Source: Ceratodon purpureus (taxonomy: Eukaryota; Streptophyta; Bryopsida; Pseudoditrichales; Ditrichaceae). From it: a stretch of 64,000 nt of DNA. The DNA is taken from contig CM026433.1 of assembly GCA_014871385.1 (NCBI GenBank), forward strand, positions 7,897,930 to 7,961,929, read 5' to 3'. The notes below the pieces were generated by a model. The model ran no database searches. It was not told where the DNA came from and was given only the letters and a program-made list of their open reading frames with translations. Shown one piece after another: positions 170 through 33,118 of the stretch; the first letter of the stretch is position 1, and every line of letters begins with the position of its first letter. The position numbers were made by a program, and so were the translations under genes.

Positions 170-407
170 CAGAGTTGTTCATGGGACAAAAGGACCGGTC
201 CGTCCGTCTGGTCCGCTCGTTCGTCCGTTAGGGGTCAGGGGAGGTCCGTTTGACCAGGACTTACGGTTGACCACCCAAATGGTGAAATGGGAGTTACCTT
301 GGCCACCTAGGATGCCACGCGTCTGACATGTCACCAAATATTCCACATATATTGTTGACTCGGGGGATGACGTGGCTAAGAGGAAGGGCGCCAACGCCTT
401 GAGTGTG

Positions 408-571
408 GAGGGCGCGAGCGAGGGGGCGCGAGCGAGGGGGCGCGAGCGACTGGGAGGGGCGCGGGCGCCTGCGAGGGGGGGGGGGGGGGCGCGAGCGCCT
501 GCGATTGCAGGGGGGCGCGAGCAAGGGGTTTAGGCTGGGGGCGCGAGCGCCTGCGAAGGGGGGGCGCGAGC
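408..571 (+). repeat. G-rich array 1 (GGGGCGCGAGC motif)
   Basis: Degenerate tandem copies of a GGGGCGCGAGC-type unit with spacers such as GCCTGCGA, including a long G-run near 474-489. It lies between the left end of the hAT element and the 3' end of the transposase gene. Apparent ORFs across it are low-complexity artefacts. The plus strand has runs able to form G-quadruplexes. Confidence 0.85.
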
Positions 572-853
572 TGGGAACAAGAATCAACCATTGAAGGAAA
601 TTAAGACATGACTGAATTTTTCATAGTGACATAAATGAGAGAAGTTTCAATTCATGTCGAAACAAATTACATTCAATAGCCTTAGCTAATGTTTTATGGA
701 CATTGACTAAGGTTAACATATAAGTATCTACGTATAAAATTTAGATATATATATATATATTATATTTTTTTGTGTTTTTCTAAAATTATTTTGGAGACAT
801 ATATATTATACTTTCTCTATATAACTTCTATATATAATATGCTAATAGATGTA

Positions 854-3800
854 TCACTTTTTTTTGTTTTTTTTGGCGGTGCGCCGCTCTGGATTCCTTC
901 GAGTACCGGGCATACCCAATGGTACTCTTACAACAATGTCTTCATCATCAGGTGCTTCTTCACGGCTATCTTCTGATGAGTAATATCCTTCTGAGGATTT
1001 CGACCCCTCGTCATCTCCATCTCCCCCCTGATTAGGCACACACTCCTCCACCGTGGAATGAATGTTGCGCAATTCGTGGTCAATTGTACCATCCACCACT
1101 GTGGTCACAATTCTTTTGATCTTCCGTCTTTTGGTCTTATCAGTGATTCCGTCCACATTCATTACGGGTAATCTACGTTTACCCACAGCCACAGGTAAAG
1201 ACGGGGTAGTCCCAACAGTATATCCTGAAAAAAAAGGGCGAACGTTTGTTGGACCTTTCCGTGACCGTATCACTCCATGACGCGTCGTAGAAGGTCCAGC
1301 TGGTAGACTTCGTCCAGAAGAAGTGAGTGGAATGCTTGTATTCGGTGTTGGAGTTAATGAACCATGCCCAGTAGAAGTGCTTGAACGAGGTGGGGGGGGG
1401 GTCGACCCAACCCTGCAAGTACTGCTCCAATTGAAGGTGTACTCTGGGGCATGGGTGTTTGAAACAATCGGCCAATAGGAATTTCATCTTCTTGTCCATT
1501 TCTGACTGTCTCTGATTGTTCATTTCTTGGAGGGCTTTCATCCAAACCTCCGGACCTCATTGTTTCCTCAACATTTACTGGCTGTGTGCCCTGGAGTTGT
1601 TCAACTTCTTCTCCTCCCTCAACGTCTTCTGGAATTGGAATTTGCTCTCCCATGTTGTTACCCCCTCCTTCATTGTCATTGTTCGAAACGCTACGAACGG
1701 GGTAAATGTCATCATTATTGCCACCATCGTCGCTTTGATGCTGAGTCATTTCGACTTCAAATTCATCGTCAATATCATCGTCTGCCCGATCGTATGCGAC
1801 CTCGCCTCTAGTTCGTATTTCATTGACAACGTGGTGAGGCGAAGTAGCTGCCTCTTCATCAAATCCTGCCCAGTCAAAAACTCCATTCGGCTGGTTAACG
1901 GGTTCAGTGCGTGGCATGTCACCATCACCATTGTCCACGGGTAACTCTGGATACTCATCATCCATAGTAGCAGGAGTGTAATAAACTCCACCGTCATCAC
2001 CATCGCCTTCATTAACTTCAAGTCCGTCGTGGAATCCTTCATCTCCATCATCATCACATACGTCTTCATCGTACATGGCTGGCACTTCTTCATCCGAGTC
2101 TTCGGAGAACGGTTGGTTCTCGTACCAAAGAACAGGATCCGCTCCACGTCGTTCTCGAAGGAGCTTACTGTTCGTGTAAATGTACACCAAGTCCTCTGCC
2201 TTCTTCACGGCCAATCGGTTGCGAACCTTACTGTGAACAAAGGAATACATGCTCCAATTTCGCTCACATGATGATGCCGAGCATGTTAACGAAAGGATGC
2301 GCTTTGATATCAACGGTAACGCATCGCCCCCAACCCGCTGCCACCATTGATGAGGTAGCATCTTAGTCTGTCGAATGTTTGGGGCCTCCAAAGGGCTGAA
2401 TGGACCGGTGCGTTCCTCAAACTGTGTTAGCTCGAACAACACAGTATCGTGGTCCAGTTTAAGGGACTCACTCAAATGAATTAGCACTTGCAGGAGTGCA
2501 CGCTTCGCAGCACTGTTAGTCAATAGCTTGTGGCTCTCCGGGAAAATGTAGAGATTCAAAATGGCGCCTGCGTAATGGAGATTTGTCAACATCATCTTCC
2601 ATCTCTTCGTAAAATGTTTCTCAAAGCGCCCTGCTATAGCGGGGTCTAGGAAAAAAGGATCACCCCGTAGACGGAACACATGCTTCTTCAAATTATTCAT
2701 GGCCAACCATGCCCTCCCCATTGCCGGTGTTTGTCCATCAAATGTCTTCAAGGTCACAACAGCCGGCTTCATAACATGCACAAGATTCTCACAACGTAAC
2801 CAAAATGTCTCATCGAGAATGGTACTCCGTACTTGACATGCTAAGGTGTGAGCTCGATACCCGTTTGACCGATTAAATAAAGTACCCACATATTCGTCCC
2901 ATTTCGGACTGGCTACCACCTGGATTAGTGCCTCCCTCAGTTCAAGCAATCGAACAATCATCAAGTACTGGCATCGAAATCTTGTCTCCGCTGGTAACAA
3001 CAGAGACAACTTCGGGCTGAATTGGCGAAACAAAGCCATGGTGACATGACGGCGACGTATAAAATTTGGTATGCGTTTTGCCAAGGCAATCAGCTCTTTG
3101 AAGGTTGCTTCCTTCCCCCAATCTTCTAGTAAGAGGTCCATGATGTGAGCTGCACAACCTTGCTTGTAAATGTGAGGATAAGCTTCAACCACAACGGTCC
3201 ATGGCTCCCAACATCGCACTAGCATTGTCGGAGCAAATCTGTACCACATTCTGCGGTCCAACTTCTTTGATGTACTCTTTCAATTTCCCAGCTATGTATG
3301 CCTTTGATTTCTTGTACCCCGTTGTATCAATGGAACCCAGGAATATATCTCCTGCTGGACACACAAGCATGACATTCATGAACTGCCGATGAACAACGTT
3401 GTCCCATCCATCCGAGCAAATAGTTGCCCCGTACAAGCTAATACACTGCTTCGTTTTCTCCTCTATTCTCAACTTGAGAAGCTGCTTTGTTGGCTGGATG
3501 TGCTTGGTTCGCATTGCGTTGTATGCTGGTGGACGGTACACAAAACCCGCTTTCGATGTTGCCTCCACAGCAGCGATAAAAGATGGATGTCTAACCACAT
3601 TGAAAGGCACATTCGCTTCGTAAAAATAGGACGCCCATTTCTCATCCAATTCATTGCGCATCCCAATCTGATAGGCCTCGGTAAAACTTTGTTGCCGCAT
3701 AGATCTTGGTGTACATGAATCGCCTCTGCTTATAGGCGGAGTTGACTGAGACGGTTGAACTTGGGAAATCCTCTCCTCTTGGACCTCCTCCGTTCTCTGA

Positions 3801-4141
3801 GGCACTTCCGTAGATTGCTCAGCAGGCATAGACTGGCTAGAACATGGTGCCAGGTGTGCCAAGTGTGCCTCGCCATCACCACCATCAGTGCCGTATATCT
3901 CCGCATGTGTCATTCTTTTTGGTATTACATTACCACAATTGGCAAAGCGCCTAAATACGGCGGCAGGGGCCTTGGTACAATGACTCTTGCTTGAACCTTC
4001 ACCCCATCCATAGTGCTTGAAAGCTCTTTGTCGTTTATAACGAAAGGTGAAATTGCACCACACACATTTAACATGGTCCTTATCAATGAACGTCCACCAC
4101 GGAGCCCACTCAGCCGTCGACTGACGCTGTTGACCTGCCAT
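854..4141 (-). CDS. hAT transposase (BED finger, DUF659, hAT dimerisation), frame interrupted
   Basis: Reading starts at ATG 4141. The N-terminus has a BED-type zinc finger (CVWC at residues 26-29, then H and C ligands up to SKSHC). A DUF659-like region follows, with the acidic motifs ICSDGWD and QICSDNAS. The continuation in the next frame (from about 3200) has the hAT core (YPHIYKQGCAAH) and, near its end, the dimerisation signature (CSASSCERNWSMYSFVHSKV). A long acidic and S/T/P-rich tail runs on to a Lys-rich end at about 854. Two breaks are visible: a one-base shift near 3200 and another at a G10 homopolymer around 1392-1401, after which the tail continues in another frame. The second could be a sequencing slip. 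The protein would cut and rejoin the element's ends in the nucleus. The family call is firm; whether this copy is active is doubtful. Confidence 0.88.
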
Positions 4142-4351
4142 TCTCCGTGTCTCTGAAAAAATACAATGATCTCCTGTCTGCGAGTGTTAGTATGACACAT
4201 GTGAGAAAAAAATGGTATGTGTAGACATCAACCACAGGCCAATGTGATGCACATAGTCTCAAGCAAGGAGCCCACAAGGAGTTCCGGGACTAGAGGCCAT
4301 GATTTCAAATGATATTGGGCTTGGGCTAAGTTGGTGGCATTTATACTCGTG

Positions 4352-4635
4352 AGGGGGGGCGCGAGTTTCTCCAGGCGGGGGGGGCGCGAGCGTCTGCAGG
4401 GGGGCGCGAGTTTCTCCAGGTGGGGGGGCGCGAGCTTCTCCAGAGGGGGGGGGGGGCGCGAGCTTCTCCAGGGGGGGGCGCGAGCTTCTCCAGGGGGGGC
4501 GCGAGCTTCTCCAAGGGGGGGCGCAACCTACTGCAAAGGGGGGCGCGAGCTTCTCAGAGGGGGGGCGCGAGCTTCTGGAAGGGGGGGGGGGCGCGAGCTT
4601 CCAGAGGGGGGGGGCGCGAGCGGGTTCAGGGGGGA
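4352..4635 (+). repeat. G-rich array 2 (GGGGCGCGAGCTTCTCCA units)
   Basis: About ten copies of a unit built from a G-run, GCGCGAGC and TTCTCCA (variants TTTCTCCA, TTCCAGA). It lies between the 5' end of the hAT transposase gene and the 3' end of the kinase gene, both on the minus strand. G-rich on the plus strand, as in array 1. Confidence 0.88.
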
Positions 4636-4853
4636 GGCACCCTTGTACGAGGGGCAGTCCCGGTGAATGGGCCATACAGTTTTTTAATTTTTTTTTTAAA
4701 AACAATTTTTCATTCCATTACAAAACCACCTATACCATTTCATGTTCCACCAAGGCATGTATACGCCGAAAAAACGATTTATTAAAATATTAGAAATGTG
4801 CAAACAAGGCCACATAGGCAATCAAAATGTTCCAAACGTAATTCACTATGGAA

Positions 4854-6434
4854 CTACAATGTGTATCTAAAACAACCATTGGGAGCTTGGAAGTTGTAAG
4901 GGGGGCTCATCAAATCATTCACAACTTTTGCAAGTGAAAGCCTCTTTTTAGGATCTTCGTTAAGCAAGCCATCCAACTTTGATGAGAATACAATCTTTGA
5001 GATTGAATCCTTGAAGAGTTCTGGGCAATCTTCTTCTCTCCATATCTTCTTTGCCAAATGGCCTACCGAAAATGCATCAGATAGCGTCGTACATGGATGC
5101 ATCCTCTTCATGCGCTCCAAATTGTGTTCCTCATCATCTTTCTTGCCATATAAAAAGAACAACTCCGGTGCAACTCCTACCCTCCTCTCCTTTACTTGTA
5201 CAAGTTCATCGGGGTCCATCACACCATAAGGGGAGGCCTTCTTCTCAATGACTCTGCTTGCCACACCCCAATCGCACACACCAATATATACTTTATCCTT
5301 GTCATGAGGTGGAAAGTGGAGTAGAATGTTGGATGGCGTTAAGTCGTTGTGGAGGATTTTAGCCTTATGGACTATGTCCATAACGTAGATGAGACTCCAC
5401 GCCAACATTCCCCGGTTCTTTCGATAGGCAACAATTCTTTGGCACTCTTCCATGGGCATATCCCTCGACTTCAAAATTTCTTTGTAATCTATTGCCTCGC
5501 TTGCCTTCTCATTTAATTTGAGGAAGTTGCGGAGGCAATCTCCATTCCACCACAGGGTATAAGCTTCCATGGTCTTCGAGTGAATGGCCCAAAATTTTAT
5601 CACACCCGGATGCTCTACGGGGTTAACCGTGGCCTCAATCGCCCGTTCGTCTCGCTGCTTCACTTCGGTTTTAGCCTTGGAAAGTTTACCCGCAAATTCT
5701 ATGTGAATTGGAATTTTCTTCATATTGGCTATTCGCACTTTTCGCACTTTGCCATACCCCCCCTCGGCATTGAAGCCAGATAATGGCACAACCTTGGCCG
5801 TAACCGGAATCCATATCAATGCACCATACATGTGTGCTTCCAATGCTGAGTTCAGTGCTTGCTCATTCCAAGGCATAATCTTTGTTTTCCCCTTAGAACA
5901 TCTCTGACATGCCTCCTGAACCGTTGTCAGTTTTTGAATAAACACTTTGTCTTGGTTGCTCCATTCTTCGCCTTGTGGTTTCTTGACATGTGATTCAAAC
6001 ACATGAATGACATTTGTCGTAGCACTACTCACTTGTTGTGTCAACCACTTCGGGCTGTGAAAATACTTCGTCATGCAATCCATGTACATCTCTGATCCTT
6101 CCAATGCGCTCCAAAATTCCCTTTCCAAATCACGTTGGAGGTTGTAGATACCATTCTCTCCGTGATCAAGGTACATTGCCTTCAACATTCGTATGGTACG
6201 GGCCTTGTAGTACTCGACGGTCACCTTCCTGATGAAATGCGTATACTCCAATGGTGGATAACCGTCATCCTTCTCGTGCGCTGGAATACTCTTCTTCTTT
6301 TTACCCTTCGAGCTAGATGAAGGAGTAGAACCAGTAGAACCATGAGGTGTTACGCAACTCATAGGGTCCACCGCATCTGGAGCATCCAAGTCCTCATAGA
6401 TAGGCCGCTTGCCGGAGCTTTGTCTAGAAGACAT
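4854..6434 (-). CDS. Protein kinase carried by the hAT element
   Basis: A single 526-aa ORF from ATG 6434. The first 200 residues match no domain I recognise; they open with a Ser/Lys-rich stretch. A kinase domain follows: glycine loop GGYGKV (225-230), candidate ATP lysine K250, catalytic loop HNDLTPSN (362-369, with D364 and N369), DWG in place of DFG (388-390), APE (422-424), the conserved Asp of subdomain IX (D453) and an Arg near 498. The catalytic-loop Lys is replaced by Thr and HRD by HND, so this is a non-RD kinase that still has the main catalytic residues. It looks competent for Ser/Thr phosphorylation, but the substrate is unknown. It is co-oriented with the transposase and diverges from the RING gene. 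Capture from a host kinase is likely; the role in the element is inference. Confidence 0.85.
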   Translation of the reverse strand: MSSRQSSGKRPIYEDLDAPDAVDPMSCVTPHGSTGSTPSSSSKGKKKKSIPAHEKDDGYPPLEYTHFIRKVTVEYYKARTIRMLKAMYLDHGENGIYNLQRDLEREFWSALEGSEMYMDCMTKYFHSPKWLTQQVSSATTNVIHVFESHVKKPQGEEWSNQDKVFIQKLTTVQEACQRCSKGKTKIMPWNEQALNSALEAHMYGALIWIPVTAKVVPLSGFNAEGGYGKVRKVRIANMKKIPIHIEFAGKLSKAKTEVKQRDERAIEATVNPVEHPGVIKFWAIHSKTMEAYTLWWNGDCLRNFLKLNEKASEAIDYKEILKSRDMPMEECQRIVAYRKNRGMLAWSLIYVMDIVHKAKILHNDLTPSNILLHFPPHDKDKVYIGVCDWGVASRVIEKKASPYGVMDPDELVQVKERRVGVAPELFFLYGKKDDEEHNLERMKRMHPCTTLSDAFSVGHLAKKIWREEDCPELFKDSISKIVFSSKLDGLLNEDPKKRLSLAKVVNDLMSPPYNFQAPNGCFRYTL

Positions 6435-6590
6435 CGCAAAGTAAATCCCTGGAAAAAAAAATCAACAACTTCCCCCCCCGCCCCAATGAAGACTTCCCAC
6501 ATAAGCAGTTCCAAGCAAGGCGTGTTTTCACACGTCAGGACAAGGAGCCGCAGTGGGAAGGAGTGAGGGGGGCGAGAGCTTCTCCCCACC

Positions 6591-6597
6591 TTATATA
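6591..6597 (-). promoter_or_regulatory. Probable TATA box of the kinase gene
   Basis: On the minus strand the sequence reads CTATATAAGG, about 155 bases upstream of the kinase start codon, directly between the kinase 5' end and G-rich array 3. Position and sequence suit a plant TATA box; no transcript evidence is available. Confidence 0.5.
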
Positions 6598-6610
6598 GTC
6601 CCCCACGGAT

Positions 6611-6726
6611 CCGCTCGCGCCCCCCCCTGAACCCGCTCGCGCCCCCCCCCTTTATCCCGCTCGCGCCCCCCCCCCTAAGCCGCTCGCGCCCCCCCTAACC
6701 CCGCTCGCCCCCCCCCCCCCCCCCCC
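6611..6726 (-). repeat. G-rich array 3 (minus strand) in the divergent promoter
   Basis: About five copies of CCGCTCGCGCCCCCCC, the reverse complement of the arrays 1 and 2 unit, with spacers such as TGAAC, TTTATC and TAAG, ending in a long C-run. It lies between the divergently transcribed kinase and RING genes. Confidence 0.88.
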
Positions 6727-6787
6727 GACTAAATAAGTGAAGGGGGCGCCCTCCCCCCCCCACTTTTTAAGCTCCACCTTGGCACTC

Positions 6788-6951
6788 AGGCCTTGAACTA
6801 CCTCGCGGTGGCTTATTGCTGAGTACTTGGGTGGGGTCTACAGCATTTTGACAACGCCACGTACCTCGTTCTACCGTATTTTGTACGCTCATCCGGGAAT
6901 TCGGGCCCTAAACTACCTCACGGTGGCTTATTGCTGAATACTTGGGTGGGC
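6788..6951 (+). repeat. Direct repeat upstream of the RING gene
   Basis: Two copies of a segment of roughly 45 bp with the core CGGTGGCTTATTGCTGA, spaced 114 bp apart (AACTACCTC begins at 6797 and 6911). They differ at a few bases. They sit 120-280 bp upstream of the RING start codon and may be promoter elements; this is inference from position. Confidence 0.6.
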
Positions 6952-7069
6952 CACAAAGTATAGTTACAATACCATAATCAACCACGGAGGAAAATTGTAA
7001 AATCAATTGGGGGAAGTTTTGAGGAGTTGGTGTGTTTTTTAACACACAAAACTTTACCAGTACACCACG

Positions 7070-9451
7070 ATGGAGGGAAACCCAGATCCGGCGGAGGAAA
7101 GGCCACTCACCAAGGCCGAAAAGAAAAAAATCAGAGATCGTGAACGGAAGCGTGGTGGTAAGAAGATGAAGAAGCGGCTTCATGTGCTGAACAACCCGAC
7201 AAAGTTGGCATTTAGAGGTTGGCAAGATGAGCCGGAACCGTGGAAATATTCCACATGCGAGGAATTCATTGAGTGGTGCCACATCACAAAAATATTTCCA
7301 CATGATCGGCACAGAAAACACAGGATCTCAGACAAGGCTAACCTCTATTATTGCTTGAATGCGGAGTTTGTTGAACGTTCTATACAAGTTTACCAGCATC
7401 TATACAAGCAACGATGTGTTGAACGCAATGAAGTACCATTGTTCATTTGCAGAATGGTGTATGCTGAGGTGGTGCTTCACAAAGTGGTGGATTGGTCCAC
7501 CATCAAATCCACGCCGAGTGTTAGGGCGCCGACAGAGCGTGACATTCCCAAACAAAGGAAATACGCAGATGGTGGCCTGGGGAAAAAAATGAAGGAAAAA
7601 ACACAAGTGCGGGAGCCTGATACAGCAGAGTCTGAACCAGATTCTGATTCCGATGGTCGTCGTGGAGAAAGAGTGCCACGTAGAATTGCAGCACCAGCAA
7701 ATATGGCTGTAGAGCCTCCAATGAACCATCCAGCGGACGTCATAGAACCTCACGACGATGCGAACACCATCTTCGTGGAAAACGATCCAAATACGGCAGC
7801 TAATTTGGAGGTGGTCGGAACTGAACCTACGATGGTTCTTGGCATGCCGGTTCTAGTTAGAAATGACCAGTCTAACCAGACCGAGGAGGTCGGGGAGTTG
7901 CAATTACAGGTTATAGAAAAGGATGGCTTCATTGCAGAGTTACAAGAGACCATCCGAAAACTAGGATTGGAATCAGCAGCAAAAGATGCAGTAATATCAG
8001 ATTTGCGCATTCAATTGCAAGAACGAGAAAGACCTCAGTCTTCTCAAGCCAATGATATACCTGTAGTTCAAGATCCAATGTTGGTGGATGAATCTTACAT
8101 CAACAACACATTTGATGTTGCAACGGCCGGTGTGTTGGAGAATATTTCCACACCAGCAAAACGACGACGAGTTGGAGTGATATTGCCTCCACCAGCCCCA
8201 TACCCGCGACCCTATGTGGACATCGATGGACCATTAAGTCAAGATTCCTTGTCATTTCCACCCAATGCTCTAACGGGAGAAGTGGAGACATTGAAGAGAG
8301 CCAATAATGATTTGCGGCTCCTTGTTTCTAAGTTTGCTAAAGCATACTACGAGTGGAAAGTGGCAACCATTCTCAGCGTTGATCGCGGTCGCCAAATTGC
8401 ATTAGAGTTCAAGAAGATCGACGAATCGTACTTGCAACACAACAGACGAAGGAATTTTGGCCTCACTTCATGGATTAACGCAGATGATATGTATCCAGAT
8501 AACATGCCAATGCAAGAATCGAATCCTGAACTCATAGATTGGGCCGAGTTGAATTTCGATGTGAAGAACGCAACTTCGTGCCATGATCTTCAAATGAAGG
8601 AAGGAGTTAATAGCAGAAAGCTTTGGCCAAATCCTCAACCGTGGGTGATGGATGGTTCAAAAGAATGTAGTGTGTGTCTAAATACATTTGGTCCTGAGGG
8701 TGGATGGGCAGTTGGATCATGTACCCACATGTTCCATCCAATGTGTTTAATTAACATTTTTTTGGTAAGGAGATTTTGCCCGGTGTGCAAATCCCCGTTC
8801 CATGAACGCTTGTACGAGGTTTTTGGACTCACTCCATACATGCCACCAAGCCATGAGAGAAATCCCGAAAACACACCAGGTGAACAGTACCGCAACATGT
8901 GGGGGGAAGATTTGATTTGGAGTTGGCGGGCCCAGACTCACTCGGTCTTCAAGAGCAATGTAAGTGACGAGTTGGGGTGGGAGGATGACCCCAATCAGAT
9001 TGTGAGGGTGGCAAAGAAGATAATTGGATCAAAGAAGGAGGACCAAGGGAAACGAAATTTCTTCTATCAGACTTTGAATGGATACTGGGATCCGAAGCAT
9101 AGGAAGTTCCAACTTGGTAATCACCCAAAAGGCCTCATATGGAACAAGGACGGGGAATTGGTTACAGACCTCGAAGGTCAATTCATGACTTTGACCGCCC
9201 GAGATGCAGTCCAAATGTCTCTTTCGGAGTGGAAGTTAATTTTCAAACATGAGGCTGTTGACTTTCTTCTGGAGGAACACTCTCCACAGACATTGCGTAC
9301 ATTGAGAGAATTGAGGAACTCGCAAATTTTGCGTTCTCTCAGTGAAAGTGATGGCCCATTCCAGCGGACACGGACGAGAGCCAGGCGCAGCTTGACGCTG
9401 GACGATGGAGCGGGACCAAGTGGCACAGCGGGAGTAGATGCAGATGAATAG
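7070..9451 (+). CDS. RING-H2 protein carried by the hAT element
   Basis: A 793-aa single ORF with its ATG at 7070 in a good context. The N-terminus is Lys/Arg-rich. An acidic Ser/Asp stretch lies near 185-205, a predicted coiled coil at about 271-320, and a basic TPAKRRRVGV patch (likely nuclear localisation signal) near 361. A RING finger spans about 531-573 with C-x2-C, C-x-H-x2-H-x2-C and C-x2-C ligands (CSVC, CTHMFHPMC, CPVC), the C3H2C3 order of RING-H2 ubiquitin ligases. A conserved-looking region of about 200 residues follows, ending in an Arg-rich tail. It probably acts as an E3 ubiquitin ligase in the nucleus; partner and target are unknown. It is transcribed away from the kinase gene. 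Family membership is clear only for the RING; the rest is unrecognised. Confidence 0.85.
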   Translation: MEGNPDPAEERPLTKAEKKKIRDRERKRGGKKMKKRLHVLNNPTKLAFRGWQDEPEPWKYSTCEEFIEWCHITKIFPHDRHRKHRISDKANLYYCLNAEFVERSIQVYQHLYKQRCVERNEVPLFICRMVYAEVVLHKVVDWSTIKSTPSVRAPTERDIPKQRKYADGGLGKKMKEKTQVREPDTAESEPDSDSDGRRGERVPRRIAAPANMAVEPPMNHPADVIEPHDDANTIFVENDPNTAANLEVVGTEPTMVLGMPVLVRNDQSNQTEEVGELQLQVIEKDGFIAELQETIRKLGLESAAKDAVISDLRIQLQERERPQSSQANDIPVVQDPMLVDESYINNTFDVATAGVLENISTPAKRRRVGVILPPPAPYPRPYVDIDGPLSQDSLSFPPNALTGEVETLKRANNDLRLLVSKFAKAYYEWKVATILSVDRGRQIALEFKKIDESYLQHNRRRNFGLTSWINADDMYPDNMPMQESNPELIDWAELNFDVKNATSCHDLQMKEGVNSRKLWPNPQPWVMDGSKECSVCLNTFGPEGGWAVGSCTHMFHPMCLINIFLVRRFCPVCKSPFHERLYEVFGLTPYMPPSHERNPENTPGEQYRNMWGEDLIWSWRAQTHSVFKSNVSDELGWEDDPNQIVRVAKKIIGSKKEDQGKRNFFYQTLNGYWDPKHRKFQLGNHPKGLIWNKDGELVTDLEGQFMTLTARDAVQMSLSEWKLIFKHEAVDFLLEEHSPQTLRTLRELRNSQILRSLSESDGPFQRTRTRARRSLTLDDGAGPSGTAGVDADE

Positions 9452-9708
9452 GAATAGTTACAACTTAGTACTAAGTGACTAGTTTTCATATACTACAGTT
9501 TTTGTAATGTTTTGGTTTGAATTGGTAATGAAATGCTTTTACTTTCTTAAATGTATACAACATTGCAAAGTCCATGTATTTTGGCTCACGAGTATCTGAA
9601 TTTACACATTTGTCATTGCGCTTAGCCCCAATATATTATTCTGATGAAAATGTTAGGTTTTTTTGCATTGTCAAAAATTTACATCTACAAAATGGGCCGC
9701 ACGAGAAA

Positions 9709-9808
9709 CCCGCTCGCGCCCCCCCTAAACCCGCTCGCGCCCCCCCTGAACCCGCTCGCGCCCCCCTGAACCCGCTCGCGCCCCCCCCTGTACCCGCTCT
9801 CGCCCCCT
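9709..9808 (-). repeat. G-rich array 4 (minus strand)
   Basis: Five copies of CCCGCTCGCGCCCCCC separated by TAAA, TGAA or TGTA, 260 bp downstream of the RING stop codon and 230 bp inside the right end of the hAT element. Same unit and strand as array 3. Confidence 0.88.
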
Positions 9809-10162
9809 ACACATGCTGGCACCCCTTTTGCATATGTGGAATTCCCCGTCATCGTTCGTTGTCCATGTCATCAATATGTTTCCCCTATAGGTAAGTTGTA
9901 AAAAAAAAAAACTAACTTAGTAATTTTCCTCCTCCCCTCAATGTCCGATTATGTCCGGGGACCGACCGGTCCGTCCGTCCGTCCGTCCGTCTATGTCCGG
10001 AAATTTTGCCCATGTCCGTCCGAATAGACAACCCTGTCTCTAAGCTATCTTTTATGTCTAAGTTGTTACAAGGTTAGGGTTGGGTTTTTTTTTTAATAAA
10101 TTCAATACTTAGAATTAATAGACGATATAAAAAGAAAATTATATCAAATTTAAAAAAAAATA

Positions 10163-12419: not shown

Positions 12420-14348
12420 ATGGCGGCCCCGGCTCCAAGTGTACCTGCAGACACAGTGCCCACAGGTGAGTGTTTCTTGTTGGTCTTTTGTACTGGTATG
12501 TTACTGTGGTCCTATTAAGAATTACAAGTGAATGCAACATATGCAGCATAGGACGTAAACATAGTCGCAAGCATGTTATTTGTTATGGCAAACAACCAGT
12601 ACTTTCGGTTCGGTTCTGTACCTTGCTCTCCTCTACGTTTCTCTGGTGCGGAGGCTCCGGTAGTGCTTTTGCGGTGACGTTGCATGGGTAGCCCTCGGTG
12701 CTGTAGAATCTCACGGTCTGGTGCAGCAGGGCCGCTGCACTTTGAGATTATCACTGTCATGTGAGAGTGACTTAACTCATCCTCTCCCGTGCACCAGCGA
12801 CCCGGACCCATCCTGCACACACACACAAAGGCACTCCGACGCGCAAGTCAGTGCATATGAAAAGAAACAGCGAAACTAACGCAAAGTATGTGTTGAATCT
12901 GCCTTACAGAGAGCAACACCTCCGGAGGCCAGCAGCGTAGAAGGGCTCCCGTGAATGCTGGCAAGAGAGTCAGGACAGGCGAGGACGATACAGGTGCTCG
13001 TAGCAAAAAAGACAGAGATCCAAACTGGGCAAAGACAAAGATACTGTCGCTCATCGAAGCCAAGCGTCAAGAACATCTGGACGAATTGACAGTTGACGAC
13101 CCCCGGGAGTTGATGTGCCCGGAGCTTGGGAAATGGGGCAAGATTGCAGTTCTGCTGAACGCAGCGAAGGGAGATGGGGACGTGCACAGAGACCGGGACT
13201 CGTGCAAGTACAAATGGAATACATTTATGGCGGACTTCAAGAAGATTTGGGACTTCCACTCCAGGACTGGCCGAAATTCAGAGGAGTACTTCCGGGAGAC
13301 CACACCCGCAGAGAAGAAATTGCACAATTTGCCCAAGACCTTCTACTTCGTGGCGTATAAGAATATGGCAGAATGGCTGAGAGATAAAGCTACTCTGGCC
13401 CCCCCCCATGCTCGTGACACAATGAATCCGAATGACTCCAATTACCATGCTCCGATTCCAGAGGACTCGGGCCCTGCATGGAATTCATCGGACATAGCAG
13501 GGGAGGCCATGTGGCCGAGGTCAGGGGGAGGCATAGGTTCACCAATTCATGTGAATTCAACAGATTCACCTGCGGTGTCCTCAGCGAGGAGCATGCGGGG
13601 AGTTACATCGCCTGGAATGCATGGTGATTTCAGTAGCCCCCCCATCCATACCGCATCGACAGCCGAGGTGGGAAGAGCTGGACCTTCTCAACGCCTGCCA
13701 CGCCGGTTGGGAGAGGACTTCAACCTCAATGTCGCACCTGGTGTGGGCGGATCTCTAGTAGAAGGTGGTCGTGCTTCCGGCCCTGCTGTTAGGCCGCAAG
13801 CAGCAAACACATCTCCCGCCGCATCTCCTCCTGCCGGTACAGTGCCACCGGTATCACGGCAGGGACGCCGACCTGAGGAGATTCACATCCTTTCGTCCAC
13901 AGCAACATCAGCTGCCATGGAATTGAGACGCACTATTGGCAGCACAGGACATCGCAAGAGGAAGACAGCTGACTCTAGTGCTTTAGCTGAAGGAGTAACC
14001 GAAAGTGCAGAGAAAATGGTACAGGTGCTGAGCGAAATAAACGACACACATAAAAGCACAGAGAAGGAGAAACTTGAGCTTCAAACCCGACATTTCGCAC
14101 AGCAGTTGGAGTACAAACGTGAGAGAGATAGAGTGACCTTCGAGAATTTCAGAATCTCCCAAGAGCATACAAGGTTGAGCCTGCTCAACCAGGGGATGGT
14201 GGTGCAGGCTCTTGCTGGTTTGGCAAATGCTATAACCCGGTCTGTATCACCCATGGGTCCGCCTTCTACATCCATAGAAACTAAGACCGCCGCTCCGACC
14301 GAGGAAGCCACCGGAGACGCTGCCGACGACGAACCTGCAGCCCAGTAG
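12420..14348 (+). CDS. Myb/SANT-like protein of the Harbinger element
   Basis: Two exons fit: 12420-12465 (MAAPAPSVPADTVPT, donor GTGAGT) and 12910-14348 (acceptor TTACAG). The join is in frame and gives 494 aa. Residues about 40-130 form a trihelix or Myb/SANT-like domain (DPNWAKTKILSLIEAK, then KWGKIAVLL, CKYKWNTF and FKKIWDFH). A low-complexity Pro/Ser/Ala region follows, then a C-terminal helical segment (about 385-450) rich in Glu, Lys and Arg that could be a coiled coil. In PIF/Harbinger elements this second protein binds DNA and helps carry the transposase into the nucleus and onto the ends. It faces the transposase gene tail to tail, with about 530 bp between them. The ORF is intact. 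Confidence 0.82.
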
Positions 14349-14881
14349 AGCACTGCATCAGCATTAATCGTTCTAAGGTAAATCAGCACAGTATCATGTT
14401 CATTGTTTAAGAGGGAAAACCAAAAAAAAAAAAAAAACCAACGAACTGTTGCCGGGTTCAGGTCACTTACCATGAATGCAGTGGTAAGAACCGCATTCTC
14501 TCCGATGTTGAGTCTCCTCTTCTGTATGTAGTATGCTCTCTAGAACACAGTGTACTGTATACGCTTCTGCTTGTATCCTCCCCTTGTGCGTCAATGCCGA
14601 GTGCACACCACCATCTCACCTGCACAGCAATATTCGACTTTGTATTAGTTTCCGGGACCTGTTATCAGTAGATGATTTACAGACCTCCAAAAAAAAAATG
14701 TACTGTTCGGCTCATCTCTCCACCGAGATGATGAGCCACTGTTATTAATAAAACTTTGGCTTATCGTTGGTTAAAACAAAGGGCGCCGTCCACTGACCTG
14801 ATTCATGACTTTCAATGACGCATTGAAACCCACCCGCCCTCCACCTCCTCCACCGCCCAGCAAGTAACAACACAAATCTAG
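14349..14881. other. Spacer between the two Harbinger genes
   Basis: Shared 3' region of the convergent Myb-like and transposase genes. It holds an A-run near 14422-14436 and an AATAAA-like site near 14746; no ORF is supported. Confidence 0.55.
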
Positions 14882-16216
14882 TCATAGCCGGTCCTGAACT
14901 AAAAAAGCAGCAAGCCTTGTTCGTTTCCCTTCGCCATGTACCTCATTCGGGGGCGCTGCATCCTCTGCCTCTCCATCATCTACCGGATCGTCATCAACTA
15001 CAGGGGCCATCCCCTCCCTTTGTAACATAGCGAGAAGCCTGTCGACCTCATCAGCTGTTTGGTCCAGTAGCAAATTGTGTAAAATGCAGCAACAAACTAC
15101 TACATCAGGTAAGAGAGTGACATGGAGATCTATTGCGCTATGTAATTCCCGGAATGTCTGTTTCAAAATCCCGAATGCGTTCTCTACTACACTGCGAGCT
15201 CGGGAGAGTCTCTTATTGAAGAGTTGTTCCTGTACGCTTCTGCGGCCCCCATTGAGTTCCCGGTATGGAGTTATGAGCCAAGGGAGTATGGGGTAGCCTT
15301 TATCCCCTATCAAGTACGGGATGAAGCCTTCCACGCTGTCTGCTGGATCGAACAATGCATTCGCCGTTGCCCTCTCGTATAACATAGATCGCCGGAGTTG
15401 CCTGGCGTCATTAGTAGACCCAGGCATTCCCACCGAAATATCAATGAATTTCCTCTCCCTGTCGACAACTGCTTGACATTGCATACTGTAACCTCCACTT
15501 TTGAAATAAAAATAATCTTCAGGGCTATGGTTGGGCTTACGAATGTGGAAGTGGGTGCCGTCAATGGCACCCACCACCCCCGGCAAGCCACTGAATTCTC
15601 TGAACTGCGCCATGGTTAATTGGAGCCTATTTCCTCGCGGCCAAGCAATCTCATGCCTGAGTTCGTCGTTGATGGCTTTGACAACCTCCCGGATGATTTT
15701 AGAAGCAGTGCTTGTCCCAATCGCGAAAAACTCCGAGCACAGCAGGAGGGAGGCCCCTTGACACAACTTAAACAAGGTACAGGCGACACGGACTATGGGG
15801 GGGATTGCCTGTCTGTAGTGAGTATTCTGGCGCTCTATGTGAGGCCGGAGAATACCCGTCAAAGAAAAGACTGCAGCCTTGCTCATCCTAAAGTTCTCTA
15901 ACCACCTGTTGTCATCGAATTCATGCAGACAGAACCTACTAAACCAAGATGTAGAGCGGGGCATCACCCACCACCCCAGCTCTTGGTCGAGTAATGTTGT
16001 CGCATGAGCTATACGAAAGTCATGAAGTACAGACGCAACAATAGTATTGAGGTTTATCAGAGTCTCATGGACCTGCCCTACTTCGACCCGGACATCCCCT
16101 TCATCGGGAGGAATTGATGCAACACGGCGGAACATACTATCGACAACATTCTGCAAAAGCAGGACGAGGGACGGCAAGAAAAACGCCACATTGTCTGGGT
16201 TTAAACGATGGTCCAT
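14882..16216 (-). CDS. PIF/Harbinger DDE transposase
   Basis: Start placed at ATG 16216 (MDHRLNPDN); the frame stays open for 26 codons further upstream without an ATG. 444 aa. A helical N-terminal region leads into the DDE_Tnp_4 (nuclease HARBI1-like) fold. The catalytic triad is visible: D219 in GAIDGTHFH, D270 in GSTNDAR and E345 in ARSVVENAFGILK. The GDKGYP and CCILHN motifs of the family are present. The C-terminal tail is acidic. The ORF has no breaks, so the protein may be functional. It would excise and insert the element at TTA sites together with the Myb-like partner. Confidence 0.93.
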   Translation of the reverse strand: MDHRLNPDNVAFFLPSLVLLLQNVVDSMFRRVASIPPDEGDVRVEVGQVHETLINLNTIVASVLHDFRIAHATTLLDQELGWWVMPRSTSWFSRFCLHEFDDNRWLENFRMSKAAVFSLTGILRPHIERQNTHYRQAIPPIVRVACTLFKLCQGASLLLCSEFFAIGTSTASKIIREVVKAINDELRHEIAWPRGNRLQLTMAQFREFSGLPGVVGAIDGTHFHIRKPNHSPEDYFYFKSGGYSMQCQAVVDRERKFIDISVGMPGSTNDARQLRRSMLYERATANALFDPADSVEGFIPYLIGDKGYPILPWLITPYRELNGGRRSVQEQLFNKRLSRARSVVENAFGILKQTFRELHSAIDLHVTLLPDVVVCCCILHNLLLDQTADEVDRLLAMLQREGMAPVVDDDPVDDGEAEDAAPPNEVHGEGKRTRLAAFLVQDRL

Positions 16217-17042
16217 CAAGGCGGACGGGGTGCGATGTCTAAAGGATATGGAAAACCCTAGACGGTGACAACTACAACGACGATTGCTGGACACGACGAA
16301 GGCAGCCCCCCTGCAATTGATATCGGAAAGTGATGTTCGGACTCTACAGAACGGTGGCTGCCAGAAAACTTACCTGCGTGCAGAAACCCGCGAGTCCTAG
16401 GCCTCACCGCAAAACCCCCAGCTGCCGTCACCGAATGGAAACAGGAATCGCATTATAGCAGGACCGGAGCTGCATGGAAAACGCACAAGAATTCCAAATT
16501 AGAAACAATTTGCCGCGCAGACAAGGCAACAGCCCAACGATGCATGTGTACATTGACACGGAATTGTAAATTAGCTGCGCAACCAGAGGACTTCTGTTCC
16601 TGTTACTATGCGTACCTTAACCGGTGCCTCCGAGGACGATCCGCAACGCAGCAACACGCAGAGCTGCCGCCGAAGATCACCTAAACGCAAGCGTTCATTC
16701 TATCTGCCTCCCACAGGTATCCCCTAATCGACACCGAAATCTTCTCGAACAGACGCCGATCCCCACAATCGCATGAACGACACTCGGTCTGAACATCAAC
16801 ACTGCGAGAACAATTGGAGCATTCGGTGGACTCAAAACAGACACGGCGGTGAGAGTACAAGCGTATGCGAGACGTTGCAACTGAGGGGGGAGCTTCATTC
16901 GGGGAAGACGAAGGAGACACGGTCAGGGTGCACTAAAACTGCCCGATTGAGAAAACCCTCTGCCCCTTCTGCCCGAGAACGAGACCTCTGCATGAACTGT
17001 CACTTCGCCCCAGTAAGTCGGATCCATGATTACTTGTCGCTG
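16217..17042. other. Harbinger DNA upstream of the transposase
   Basis: Leader of the transposase gene up to the CACTA insertion (TSD TTA at 17043-17045). Short ORFs in several frames look random; no gene is supported. Confidence 0.6.
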
Positions 17043-18987: not shown

Positions 18988-21900
18988 TTAGTTCTCCTCC
19001 TCCGAAGACTCTCCTACATCCCTGTCGAATACACCAGCTTCTACTTCTGCCACTGGGACTAACAATTCTGGAATACGTATGTTCCTTCCAGTTGGGAGAG
19101 GATTTGGATTTGTCTCAAGTATTTCGGTCGCAGCGCGTAGCCCCTGGAAATCCACATCCCTCCCCATCGCGAACAATTGTGCCTCTTCCTCTTCCTCCAT
19201 TTCGCTGTCAATCCTCCGGCCCCTTACTTCGGTTCTTAAAACTACCCTCCAGCCCGGCTCGTCCTCCTCATTAGAGAAAAATACCTGTTCACAATGTAAT
19301 GGAAATGCGAAAGATTCGTACCCAAATGGTACAAGTGAGTTGAAATTTGCCAATGTGAAGCCCCACTCATCCTTTTTAACTGTCGCATTTCTACCTCGAT
19401 AGTTAGCCTTCACCCACTCGCACACTAGTACCACTGTGCAATGCTGAACATAGTTCAACTCCACAATCTCCTGTATCTGACCTATGTACTCCAAGTTGGC
19501 GTCCACTGGGTTTGTGTCCCGCCTCCCTGATCGGCAAGGTCTCCGGAAAGTAGCAGCTACACCTGAATCACATGTATTATGGGCGCCGTCTTCTACACTT
19601 TGCACTCGATAATGATACCCATATGAGTACATACTTCGGTACTTTTTTGCCTGAAGACTTGGTGGTTTCGAGGAAGCCTTAACATCTTCTGGAACCACCG
19701 AACCCGCATCAATTGCCTCCTTCACGTCTGCTTCAAGCCATAATGAAAACGATGGGATCTCTCCCATCCCGGCCGGAAATGGTGCCGCAGGCCGGCCGTT
19801 TCTCCGTGGGTGTTGTCTTCTAAATTCTGCTCGCTCATTCCTCCTTTCAGTCCACACTGCTTGATACCTCCTGTATGAGTTCATGACAAGTATCGCCCAA
19901 ACGAGTCAGTAACGTACTGTGCTTGTATTCCAAATACACGTCCACTGTAATTAATATTACCAGCTCTTAATTGCAAAGGTCTTGCCTGGTCAAATACCCC
20001 GGTCCAATCGAACACAATATCTACTTTTACGTGACGATGCACATGTGGTCAAATTGCTAGACCATACAGGGATAAAATGGAAGTTTGCTGCATGACATTT
20101 CTGAGGATTGTTGCTTCGGATTTGCATCTGCTGATGTACTTCATTGTTTTGGAAATTACAGCAATAAAACAATATTAAGTTCCCCTACATCTTTCATCCC
20201 ATCACCATGTGCAAGATAAGGCTCACAATGAAATAAGCCATGTCGAACCTAAGGATACGTGGGTCAGAGTGAACTTACTCACGGTATGGTTCCAAATGTG
20301 AAGCATTGTCAAGGACAAAACAGTGCATTGCGTTCCTCAATTCCTCCGACAGCATTTTTGGTTTCCCTTTTCCCTCCAAGATTTCATCCACCATAGTCGG
20401 CTCTTCCTTGTCGTCCCATACTCTTCTTGATGTTATGTTGTATTCTGACATGTATTCTGTGATAAACCCCAAAGCCTGTTCAACTTGGTATCCCTGTGCT
20501 ATGCTACCTTCCGGTTTGGCTAAGTTTCGTACATACCCTTTTAAATTTTTAAAATAGTGTTCGTAGGGGTACATCCACCTTGTGTGAACAGGGCCACATT
20601 GAAACAACTGCTGCACTAAGTGGTTCGGCAAATGGGACATGATGTCAAAAAATGCCGGAGGGAACTCTTTCTCTAACATACACATAGTCTCCGCCGAGTC
20701 AGCAACTAACTGTTCTTTTTCTTCGGCATTAACTGTTTTAGCACACAATTTTCTGAACACTCGACTTAACCGTATGACAGCCCCGGCTAGAGACTTATTT
20801 GACACCTTCCTAAAACACAACGGCAATACTTGTTGTAACAATACATGAAAATCATGTGACTTTAGTCCAGTTAATTTACCTTTGCTAATTTTCTTGTGTA
20901 AAGCAGACACATAGTTTGTGGGAGTTCTTAGTGACTTCAGCACGCCCAATACTTTGCCTTGGTCTTCTGGAGATAACACGTAAGATGCGTCCGGCATATA
21001 CAGTCTCTCTCCGTTCGGTCCAACTGGTCGTAGATGCAGATGGGGTCTTATGTTGCGAGCTTGCATGTCTGCCCTCACGGCTGGGGTGTCTTTTTCTCCA
21101 AAAGTCGTGCGTAATATATTCTCTGCAATGTTTTTTTCACAATGCATTACATCAAGCACGTGCCTCACTGGTAGATCCTGTACACACACGCATGACACTG
21201 ATTTACTTTACTCGTTTCGGTATGTAAATCCCTTTTCATTTTATTCACTATTATGCATGACAATTCCACGTAGATTCAGAGGCCATTTTTTTCCCACAGT
21301 TAGATCATTCCCTGCTACTCTGTTCTAAGTAAATAAAAGCACTGTCTTCTTCTTAAAATAAAATGTACGCTGGTTCCCGAGCTCTAAACTTACTTCGAGA
21401 TCACTCCTGATAGAAGGTGATGTCAACCACAGTGAAATAATTCCTCTGTTCCAGTTTATTCTTTCAATATTTGTACGGTAGCAAAAGGTGAGGCATATGA
21501 AAATCTAAGAGCATGAATAACTGAATTTGTTGGAATGTGACGAACGCATACTCTTACATCTAGCCTTGGTGATTACTCTAGTCAAATACATGTTTTTCTA
21601 AAGGGGTAGTGAATGAGTACCTTCCAGTACGGCAAATCGAACCAGATACTCCGCCGTTTGACTCCGTGCAACTTCACTGGGTCCGCATTGGAGTTTTCAA
21701 CGCCACCAGCGCGTAGAAATTCCGATCTCTGCGTCCCCCACGTCAAGACTTCCTCCCCTGTTGGAGATTCCGGTGATAAGCGCCATTCCTGGTGGTTATC
21801 AAACGCTACTCGTGCCCTGCGAAATCGGTGTTCCCCATGCAGATATCGCCTAGCCCCTAAATAAATCATTTTCTTCAATAGCAATGCATGCTCAGCACAT

Positions 21901-23577
21901 GTTTCCGGTCCACAAAAAGGACACCCTTTGTAGCCATGGACTTGTTGCCCGGATAAAAGCCCTAAAGCAGGAAAATCATTTACTGTCCATATCAACATGG
22001 CTCTGAGTGTAAATCTCTTTTCCCCCTCTGGCTTGCTCATATCAATTGCTGGAATTCCGTTCCATAGAGTCAACAGGTCCCGCACAACTGGACGTAAGAA
22101 CACGTCTATATTATCTGCTGTTGGAGAATTTGGACCTGGTATGAGCACAATTAGTGAAATGAAAAACTTTTTGGTTAGCAACCAAGGCGGCAGATTGTAG
22201 ATCGTAATGAGCAGCACCCACGTTGAGTGTTTGATGGCGTTATTCTTGAATGGGATGATACCATCGCCAACCAGTCCTAGACGCAGGTTCGTAAGGACTT
22301 CTGCAAAGCCAGGAAACAGTCGATCTATTGTCTTCCACTGTTCGCTATCGGATACAGACCTCATAAGTTGACCTCTAGATTTATGGCTATGGTACCATGT
22401 CATATGCGATGCAATCTCCGGGCACTTATACATTCTCAACAAATGCTTGATTACATCAAAATAGCGGGCTACTCTCTGAGGAATTCTGTTGCCCCCGCCA
22501 ATGTACCGTGGTTGTTCGCATTTCGGGCAGGACTGTAGGTCTTCATATTCACCTTCGTACAAGATGTGTCCATCCGGGCAACAATGTACTTGTTTATGCT
22601 TTAATCCCAATCTCATAAGCATAGTCTTGATCTCATAAGTAGTTCGTGGAAAACAGTTCGACATCGGCAGCAAATCTCCCGCTATCCAAGTCAACACTGC
22701 ATCCAGAAAAGTATGCGGCACAGAATATAGGCTGCACAGAGAAAACAATACAATGCTACACTGTAATCGGTTTTTGGTACTGCCTTCGAAAACACGCTGG
22801 GTGGACTCTCTTACAAGGTTCTCCAAATTTACTTCATTCCACTGCTGGTCCTCTTGATCATTGTCGCCATCTACTGCCGCGTTGTCCTCAGCGTTAATTG
22901 CGTCGTTGTGGATGTCGTCAAACCGGTTAAAAGCATCTCGTGCCATGTTCTCTAAATCCACAGCTGCTCCCCTTGGCCACGTGAATCCACCCTCTCCACC
23001 ATCGCGTTCTCGGGGGCGGTATCGTTCTCTTTCTCTATTTGGATGTCGTGCTGGACCCCGCACGTTTCTACCATCAACTGTCTGTAAATATAGAGACTAA
23101 ATTAGTTTCAATTTGCCCTAAAGTAAAACTACATTATCATAAAATCATGTGGCACTACGTAAACGAGGAAAAACCAAGCAAGTTTTGTATGATTATACAA
23201 CGTTTTTGTACTGAACCGCCAAGGTAATCTCATCGCGGATACAATGAATTCCAACCACCCACACTACTATAGCATACGGTAGAATTTTAAACTGACATAC
23301 TTAATTTTTGTGAAGGAAGCGGAAATATTCAGAGTAAAACCCGGCCATTTCTGTACACATTTAAATACCAAGAGAATGTTGGACTCACAATGACCGGGTA
23401 CAACAAGTATGGGTCTCGTCCGTATGCGATATGGTGCCTTGCCACTGTCTCTACCTTTCTTATCCTTGCGCCTCTACAACGAATGCAGGCACAAGGGTAT
23501 TCTGGTATTCCCAATCTATTCGCCAATGAACGCTCGATGTGATATGCCGCAGACAATCTTCGCCTCATTCTGCACAA
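18988..23577 (-). CDS. CACTA TnpD-type transposase (tnp2, DUF4218, DUF4216)
   Basis: A multi-exon gene on the minus strand. The first recognisable exon (23389-23577) has the Cys-rich transposase-associated motif (YPCACIRCRG), donor GTGAGT. Exon 21621-23081 carries the Transposase_21/tnp2 region (LIVLIPGPNSPTADNIDVFL, TVNDFPALGLLSG, GYKGCPFCG). Exon 20283-21177 carries the rest and DUF4218 (KSHDFHVLLQQVLP, FPPAFFDIMSHLPNHL, RWMYPYEHYFKNLKGYVRN). The last exon (18988 to about 19880) is DUF4216-like (EIVELNYVQHCTVVLVCEWV, with QVFFSNEEDEPGWRVVL). The domain order is that of plant CACTA transposases. The large exons are open. The exact joins of the last intron are uncertain because the splice phases I tried do not match cleanly. 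The protein would bind and cut the CACTA ends. Confidence 0.88.
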
Positions 23578-31200: not shown

Positions 31201-33118
31201 GTGGTCAGCTAAATTCTATGAATGGAAGTTTAGTCAATATACGGTAATCTAAGAACGCACTTGCACACTTTGGTAAATAAATATAGTACAGTGACATACT
31301 AGACGAGAATGGGGTATTTTCATCATATGGGGAGTACACACCATTAGTAAAAACATAGTAGTAGTTGACGGACTTGCTGTGACATCCTTGAAGAGTTATA
31401 GTTGTATGTTTATGATTTATGGACGGAATAACACAATTGAAGTCTGCACATACGACTCTACTACGATGTTCTGATTAGTTTGCGAAAACATTGCAGGTTC
31501 GGAACGGTATGGGAGGTCGCCGACTCGGTCGCCGGTGAGGAGCCGAAGGCATGCATTTCCCGATGGTGGTAGTAGTCACCGAAGATCGCTGTCACCAGGA
31601 CGTACTCCACGATCGCAGCAGCGGAGCCCGGTTCACTTATCGCCACATACTAATTCCATTCGAAGGAATTCAGACGCTGAGAGGACCACGGAACATAGAA
31701 GTTCATCGGTTGTAAACGTAGACAGTCTGCAGTATCCATCGCCAGCATTGGATAGGAGGACACGACGGCACAAACAAGCCGTTCGAGAGGAAGAAATGGC
31801 GCGACGAGTACGAAATGGGGAGAAACCGTTCTATCTAACTCTAGATGCGGATGGGAAACCGTACGGTCCTGGAAGACCAGCCTGGGTTGCCGAAATATTT
31901 AAGCTGGCGTCAGGACTCGATCCCTCGTGCACCCACATTGCCCGGCAGACATACGAAGCAGTTACCACATTCAAGGAGCGATTGAACGAACGGTTTGAGT
32001 ACTCGGGTGCCCTTAATGCTGATTACCTGCGGGCAATGATGGGGAAGGCGGTAACGAGGAAGCGTGGCGAATTCTTTGCAGCGATCGACAGAAAAGAGGC
32101 TCAACCCTTACACATTGATCATGAGGTGTGGCAGCGACTCGTGAAGTTGGCGGGAAGCAGACAGCGTTTCGAAAAATCTGAACTAGGGAAAAGGGCAAAT
32201 GCGTCTCGGAAAACTCTGGGAAGGACTGGGAGATGTGGCGTGAATGGCGTACGAGAGAGACTCCGGGAACTTTTGAAGAGGTCACCAGATCCAGAAGAGA
32301 TCGAAATTGAAATGAACCGTGACAAGGGCTTCATGGGATCCAAAAAAAAATACATTGAGGACGGTGGGGAATTCGAGGAGACTCGAAGAAGAAACTCGGA
32401 CATACATCCCTAGGGTCATGCGGCCAGAGTCCTATGTCTGGTCAGAGCGAGAGTGAAGATGATGACCGCGATCCATGGAACGAGGAAGAGATATTGACAA
32501 GGAAGGTACGTTGTACAGGCACAATTAATTAATAGACATGTAAACTACAAATTATATACCGTAAGTGGTTATTGTGGAGCGACGACCATACTTAAATTAG
32601 ATAAATTGCCTGGATCTGTGTTTTCTCACTGCCATTATGTATTCCAACATATTCATAGTTATTTACATCATTTCCGAGGAGTCTTTGGCTTGCAGGAGAT
32701 GGGGAAGCAGTCTGGTACAGGAGGTACTGGGTCAAGCATGAGGAACTCAAAAAGCATTGAAGAACATGATACAGCAAGCGCAGAGTATATTAAGGAGTTG
32801 CAGGCTGAGATAGACCGGTTAACAGCCGGTACAGGGATGAGATCCAAGTACAACACTCATGAGCACCGGAGAAGTGAAGGTAAGCTCCAGTTTCAATTTG
32901 TACTATTACGTAGACACTGTTTTCTCGAAAGTCAATTGAGGTAACATGTGCTCTTATGTAGAAGTGGCGGGGTCTCGTATCTAATGATAATTTTGTTACA
33001 AATTGAAATTTAGGATGAAAAGAGGGCATTGTGCGGTCGGAAGGAACCGAAGACAGAAACTGCAATGGGAATAACCGATGACGAGAAGTGGAATTTAGGC
33101 GACGCTGATTTGCGTTAA
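28241..33118 (+). CDS. RS-rich TnpA-like protein of the CACTA element
   Basis: A multi-exon gene; the exon limits are partly uncertain. Best-supported parts: an RS-rich exon after 30514 (RRRYRRSESPT), another from about 30912 (RRYESYDDSPGSDRRE, HRSRSTTP-like runs), and exon about 31497-32413, which continues the RS region and then has a plant-transposase (Ptta/En/Spm)-like domain (YGPGRPAWVAEIFKLASG, TYEAVTTFKERLNERFEYSG). Exon 32698-32880 gives a Glu/Lys-rich coiled coil (YIKELQAEIDRLTAG), and the last exon ends at 33118. The 5' exons (28241-28675, 28791-28852, 29039 onward, 29853-30390) are tentative, and two frames stay open across 28287-28538. TnpA proteins bind subterminal repeats and regulate the element. 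The long RS domain, as in splicing factors, is unusual. Strand and domain content are firm; the full model is not. Confidence 0.65.

Follow-up and report, generated by a model that had tools for sequence, protein, structure and literature searches.

Can a plant hAT transposon carry a protein kinase gene and a RING-H2 gene as parts of itself? The question is raised by a stretch of 64,000 nucleotides from the moss Ceratodon purpureus (contig CM026433.1; the whole stretch analysed is called the window hereafter), in which positions 170-10036 form a hAT element of 9,867 bp flanked by an 8-bp target site duplication (TSD), tctctaag. A typical plant hAT element spans a few kb and has a single transposase gene. 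The window element encloses a transposase, a kinase and a RING gene, as a preliminary description of this DNA had proposed: the 8-bp TSD, the matching ends and the Pfam domains were all found. Sequence comparison strongly supports membership of both the kinase and the RING gene in the element, since copies with the same ends lie between different TSDs at different sites, and since a diverged second family (family B, the window element belonging to family A) carries the same trio within terminal inverted repeats (TIRs) and a TSD. The window element is one copy, partly decayed, of a family that is abundant and has recently been active.

The window element and its genes

With plant hAT elements of the Ac/Tam3 type the window element shares the 8-bp TSD, the short TIRs and a transposase with DUF659 and hAT dimerisation domains, features that by sequence assign it to the hAT superfamily. 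The moss elements differ from the Ac/Tam3 type in having three genes and a length of 11.5-15.4 kb. In window coordinates, the element and its flanks comprise:

162-169: left target site duplication, TCTCTAAG
170-187, plus strand: left terminal inverted repeat, CAGAGTTGTTCATGGGAC
410-571, plus strand: left GC-rich array of GGGCGCGAGC units
854-4141, minus strand: hAT transposase gene with DUF659 and Dimer_Tnp_hAT (Pfam)
4382-4621, plus strand: GC-rich GGGCGCGAGC array between the transposase and kinase genes
4854-6434, minus strand: protein kinase gene, 526 amino acids, single open frame (Pfam PF00069, E 5.2e-11)
6613-6691, minus strand: C-rich array of GCTCGCGCCC units
7070-9451, plus strand: RING-H2 gene, 793 amino acids, single open frame, divergent from the kinase gene (Pfam zf-RING_2, E 1.8e-6)
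9712-9783, minus strand: right GC-rich array
9959-10018: subterminal TCCG-rich repeats
10019-10036, minus strand: right terminal inverted repeat, reverse complement CAGGGTTGTCTATTCGGA
10037-10044: right target site duplication, TCTCTAAG

The element begins with CAGAGTTGT and ends with ACAACCCTG, the right end reading CAGGGTTGT when reversed. Both ends fit CAGRGTTGT; left and right agree at 8 of their first 9 positions and at 11 of their first 18. Positions 9964-9979 match positions 193-208 exactly over 16 bp; the subterminal TCCG-rich repeats are candidate binding sites of the transposase.

In the transposase, DUF659 (E 4.1e-22) and Dimer_Tnp_hAT (E 4.1e-6) are split over minus-strand frames that overlap one another within positions 854-4186. 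Compared with the open form of 1094 amino acids in another family A copy (L023), the window gene is frameshifted near 3200 and near 1390, so the frame is indeed broken here, as had been described. The description of the two cargo genes as open also holds, the kinase and the RING protein each being encoded by one uninterrupted frame. The kinase has Lys250, HND at 362-364, Asn369 and DWG at 388-390, which correspond in sequence to the catalytic Lys, HxD, Asn and D-x-G motifs of eukaryotic-type kinases, as HND and DWG variants. In the RING protein the zinc ligands lie at 533, 536, 551, 553, 556, 559, 570 and 573, with the spacing of a RING-H2 finger. Profile matches of both proteins in PDB were to generic kinases and RING fingers only, which leaves the two unassigned to any known host subfamily. 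An alpha-kinase identity was considered and rejected: Pfam gives Pkinase and PK_Tyr_Ser-Thr in 20 of 20 members, and alpha-kinase is absent from the 14 families listed.

Copies of family A across the genome

We searched the Ceratodon purpureus assembly of 362,488,568 bases; the listings hold the best-scoring places, and the counts are lower bounds. With the kinase protein, the best 82 of 1,422 candidates are all full length and 78 of them lack stops, while the best 40 of 311 first-look candidates for the RING DNA, window included, are full length at 98-100% identity. The two genes lie together at most of these places: 61 of the 82 listed kinases are divergent from a listed RING gene at most 9 kb apart, and, counted from the RING side, a listed kinase is divergent within 9 kb at 40 of 59 places in one search and at 24 of 40 in another. 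A simple density estimate puts chance adjacency at ~0.001 per RING gene.

Twenty family A copies were fetched, as were their right ends and another seven left stretches. We could locate the right end in 18 copies (all but L021 and L023) and the left end in eight (L010, L011, L015, L016, L021, L023, L025 and L026). Among the six copies in which both ends were located, an exact 8-bp TSD flanks four (L015, L016, L025 and L026), the duplication of L011 agrees at 7 of 8 bases, and L010, rearranged beside L009, has none. Family A copies at separate sites carry the same ends and different TSDs. The claim that the cargo travels on a hAT element led one to expect other copies with the same ends and both genes, and a check in this same genome found four, alongside the kinase-RING adjacency given above. 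These copies (L011, L015, L016 and L026) have both ends and all three genes, and measure 11.5-11.9 kb; L025, with no kinase, measures 8.8 kb. Two pairs of family A copies lie inverted or nested at one place, L009/L010 on contig C2 (~23.50-23.52 Mb) and L020/L021 on contig C11 (~11.13-11.16 Mb).

The extent of 9.87 kb first given for the element stands for the window copy and not for the family, whose copies with both ends and three genes are longer. The difference arises mainly because the window copy is without ~1.5 kb between kinase and RING genes that L023 has: the gap is 0.6 kb in the window and 2.2 kb in L023, where two C-rich arrays enclose ~1.3 kb of AT-rich non-coding repeats that are missing in the window.

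The RING gene is open in 13 of the 20 fetched copies, the kinase in 10 and the transposase in at least 4, several transposases having been partly fetched; at least one copy, L023, has all three genes open. The break in the transposase is therefore a property of the window copy, and the combination of open cargo and broken transposase, which had been offered as an argument for selection, says little on selection.

The repeated co-location of the three genes could in principle be an accident of large segmental or satellite-like amplification, as tandem GC-rich arrays lie inside the element and certain copies adjoin head-to-head or nest in one another (the two pairs named above). The copies, however, are sharply bounded, occupy separate sites and have different 8-bp TSDs. 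Satellite amplification is refuted by the TSDs, and we give an accident of this kind next to no weight.

A second three-gene family and the constraint on the cargo

A search via a distant relative of the kinase (P0034) revealed family B, whose kinases make up the best 82 of 1,384 candidates; 72 of the 82 are without stops, and 20 have an identical score. One copy was read. It is 15,436 bp long and has a perfect 19-bp TIR, CATGGTTGTCATAATGGAC, and an exact 8-bp TSD, CATGCGCC. Its kinase (522 amino acids from the first ATG), transposase (1,148 amino acids, read in this one copy) and RING protein (850 amino acids) are encoded by open frames on one strand, in an order that differs from that of family A. 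When its left flank was searched as DNA, the matches to 38 other copies started at the same base within 4 bp. A stretch 98% identical to the left flank of this copy (C5:12530294-12532213) stops at the insertion point and probably represents, by its sequence, a paralogous site without the element.

The linkage of kinase and RING genes extends to family B. A listed kinase lies downstream of 36 of the 53 listed RING genes, on the same strand and at 7.6-10.7 kb, with both genes stop-free in 24 pairs. Listed kinases are found within 200 bp of 36 of 39 left ends and listed RING genes within 600 bp of 28 of 40 right-side matches, and 14 left-right pairings of such places span 13.7-17.1 kb. The copy that was read has a fourth open frame of 134 amino acids (L058:635-1039, minus strand) with no Pfam match at E 0.01; it was not found in the window or in the 20 fetched family A copies. 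Contig C6 (~30% of the assembly), which we take, from the form of a locus tag, to be the V chromosome of a male assembly, holds 27 of the 82 listed family B kinases, no clear excess.

Between the families, protein identity is 42.5% for the RING protein, 49.8% for the kinase and 46.2% for the transposase. The corresponding nonsynonymous divergence (dN) is 0.58, 0.49 and 0.52, and synonymous divergence (dS) is saturated in all three genes. The similar divergence of the three genes and the saturated dS suggest an old cargo under roughly the same constraint as the transposase, and on this comparison the trio has been kept since before the split of families A and B. As the trio recurs in a distantly related element of this moss, the extra gene pair probably belongs to the lifestyle of these elements. 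Functional residues are also retained: among 107 aligned kinase sequences the Lys is conserved in all 107 and the Asp of HxD in 101, and for DWG the counts are 100 (D), 98 (W) and 98 (G). The finger is covered by 22 of the 27 aligned RING sequences, and at every ligand position 21-22 of these have Cys or His. The fourth ligand is His in 18 of the 22 and Cys in 4.

These comparisons bear on the possibility that host genes or fragments were captured by chance, as in Pack-type transduplication, and are carried as passengers. Fragments of host genes are often found in Mutator-like DNA transposons (PMC6446971), and the cargo is missing or broken in some copies of family A. Passengers are nevertheless hard to reconcile with the same two complete one-frame genes in families 42-50% identical in protein and saturated in synonymous divergence, with cargo that is open in most listed places (78 of 82 family A kinases, 72 of 82 family B kinases and 40 of 53 family B RING genes), and with the catalytic residues kept. 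Pack-type capture in the form of fragments differing between families is largely refuted by family B, which has the same complete pair as family A, and we consider passengers of any kind very improbable.

The preliminary description had further suggested that the cargo is under selection at the level of the element. The comparison of families A and B supports this, and dN/dS of the RING gene between family A subfamilies lends it moderate support (0.36, 0.39 and 0.65 for three pairs of three sequences, one of them read from an internal Met). The signal within family A is weak, ranging from 0.51 to 0.95: dN/dS is 0.51-0.53 for the kinase (17 copies), 0.63 for singletons and 0.95 for shared differences in the RING gene (20 copies), and 0.77-0.81 for the transposase (15 copies). 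Such a weak signal is expected if most of the differences arose after insertion.

In the protein database, 105 relatives of the kinase, at least 25 of the RING protein and at least 33 of the transposase were found (the best 8000 candidates were scored for the latter two), most of them on contigs of a few kb; the transposase relatives include KC19_VG232100 of Ceratodon purpureus. No relative of the kinase or the RING protein was confirmed on viral contigs, and no kinase relative on contigs of prokaryote genomes, where the scan was run with the kinase alone. Some kinase relatives lie on contigs of hundreds of kb, and, with 105 of them beside at least 25 for the RING protein, the kinase may occur elsewhere without the RING gene.

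Possible roles of the gene pair

That the trio makes up a functional, autonomous three-gene hAT element we regard as highly probable. Our favoured explanation overall adds that the kinase and RING proteins are trans-acting accessory proteins of such autonomous elements, and towards this fuller statement we lean with more modest confidence.

Several observations weigh against it. Both cargo genes are open in 8 of the 20 fetched family A copies, and no kinase was found in the fetched DNA of four (L009, L017, L025 and L028). For L023, the one copy with three open genes, the left end was located and the right end was not, and the left end of L012 was not found in its fetched left stretch. In the best-scoring lists, no listed RING gene lies near 21 of the 82 kinases, and no listed kinase near 19 of 59 and 16 of 40 RING places; beyond these best-scoring places, host relatives of either gene may exist outside elements. 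On the right side of family B, all 39 matches from other copies break off in a GC-rich tandem array and leave the last 306-311 bases unmatched. That end consequently rests mainly on the TIR and TSD, and a separate 182-bp match (C13:550191-550372) crosses it by 4 bases. The dN/dS ratio within family A is weakly below 1 and too noisy to prove selection. Finally, the kinase activity and the ubiquitin-ligase role of the RING protein are predictions.

On the favoured explanation, the transposase, kinase and RING genes would move as one unit, and both accessory proteins would act in trans to the advantage of the element, probably in the nucleus. All six proteins of families A and B match a loose basic-cluster pattern like that of nuclear localisation signals, a match made without a control for chance, and nuclear action of the accessory proteins is our guess. 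The kinase of the element would phosphorylate some protein in the nucleus; provided that the RING protein is a ubiquitin ligase, it would mark this target for destruction or altered activity. The target could be a host silencing factor, whose loss would counter silencing, or the transposase complex, whose modification would set the timing of transposition. We find it fairly probable that the pair acts on one or the other, host silencing and transposase taken jointly; as a leading guess, this is likelier than any other single idea. A linked step from kinase to ligase is a more doubtful proposition. The broader picture, in which the element's own kinase marks a nuclear silencing protein or the transposase and its own RING protein ubiquitinates it, and in which the trio is a hAT design of great age and success, present across mosses and perhaps outside them, is speculative and unlikely to hold in full. 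Manipulation of host regulation by the element, as first proposed from the gene content, appears plausible.

If the pair is a counter-silencing module comparable to that of VANDAL elements, it would remove or inactivate a host silencing factor. The elements have a high copy number and near-identical members, such as the 20 family B kinase places with identical score, which suggests a recent escape from silencing. There are precedents in the VANDAL anti-silencing protein, in SET methyltransferases, and in TET/JBP in fungal hAT7 and other elements, as reported in PMC12730594. Pfam, however, listed neither a SET nor a TET/JBP domain in the two cargo proteins of the window; the VANDAL protein was not part of the comparison. 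We see counter-silencing as possible and short of probable.

The pair might instead control the transposase, with phosphorylation and ubiquitination setting its stability, assembly or timing, and thereby limit damage or couple movement to the cell cycle. The similar divergence of the three genes is what interacting products would be expected to show, and the long acidic C-terminal part of the transposase, with its terminal basic clusters, could plausibly be a substrate. Most hAT elements, on the other hand, move without such genes. This role for the pair is a tentative suggestion.

Accessory genes on DNA transposons are already known. The VANDAL21/Hiun Mutator-like elements of Arabidopsis resemble the moss elements as multi-gene plant DNA transposons with accessory proteins, one of them anti-silencing (PMC6446971 and PMC12730594); they belong to another superfamily, and their accessory proteins are set apart by their description. 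MuDR, also of another superfamily, has besides mudrA a second gene, mudrB, which is apparently required for integration and whose function is called unknown in PMC6446971. PMC12730594 describes IS3EU elements of rust fungi, which combine genes for a transposase, TET/JBP and an alpha-kinase, and fungal hAT7 elements that carry TET/JBP and have 7-bp TSDs. These parallel the moss elements as a DNA transposon with a kinase gene and a hAT element with the gene of a regulatory enzyme; they differ in the fungal host, in a kinase called alpha-kinase and in the length of the hAT7 TSD, and the term "ring finger" does not occur in that text (PMC12730594). Among the literature matches listed, whose coverage lacks most subscription papers and all bioRxiv preprints, none concerned a hAT element that combines a kinase with a RING gene.

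If the pair helps the element, the moss elements would be DNA transposons with their own signalling and protein-turnover tools, and would offer a testable entry into transposon silencing in mosses. Families A and B are natural replicates for such work, and copies without one of the genes are natural deletions. Annotation of such a genome calls for caution, as many of its kinase and RING frames may be transposon-borne.

Repeat arrays and neighbouring features

All 24 exact matches in the window to the 10-mer GGGCGCGAGC or its complement fall within the element. Arrays of similar units fill intergenic and subterminal stretches in families A and B, some of them adjoining TATA-like boxes, and the 7-mer GGGCGCG also occurs in family B, in the subterminal and intergenic DNA of the element (L056-L058). 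Do these arrays have a role in promoters, replication or recombination?

Outside the element, positions 31475-32413 of the window hold a frame of 312 amino acids with a Ser/Arg-rich first third and no Pfam match at E 0.01. A two-gene element at 12897-16369, presumably of the PIF/Harbinger type, encodes a DDE_Tnp_4 transposase and a protein with a Myb/SANT-like match below the Pfam cut-off. At 18988-23096, a Transposase_21 (tnp2) frame is accompanied by DUF4218 and DUF4216 frames, which we take to be a CACTA/EnSpm-like element.

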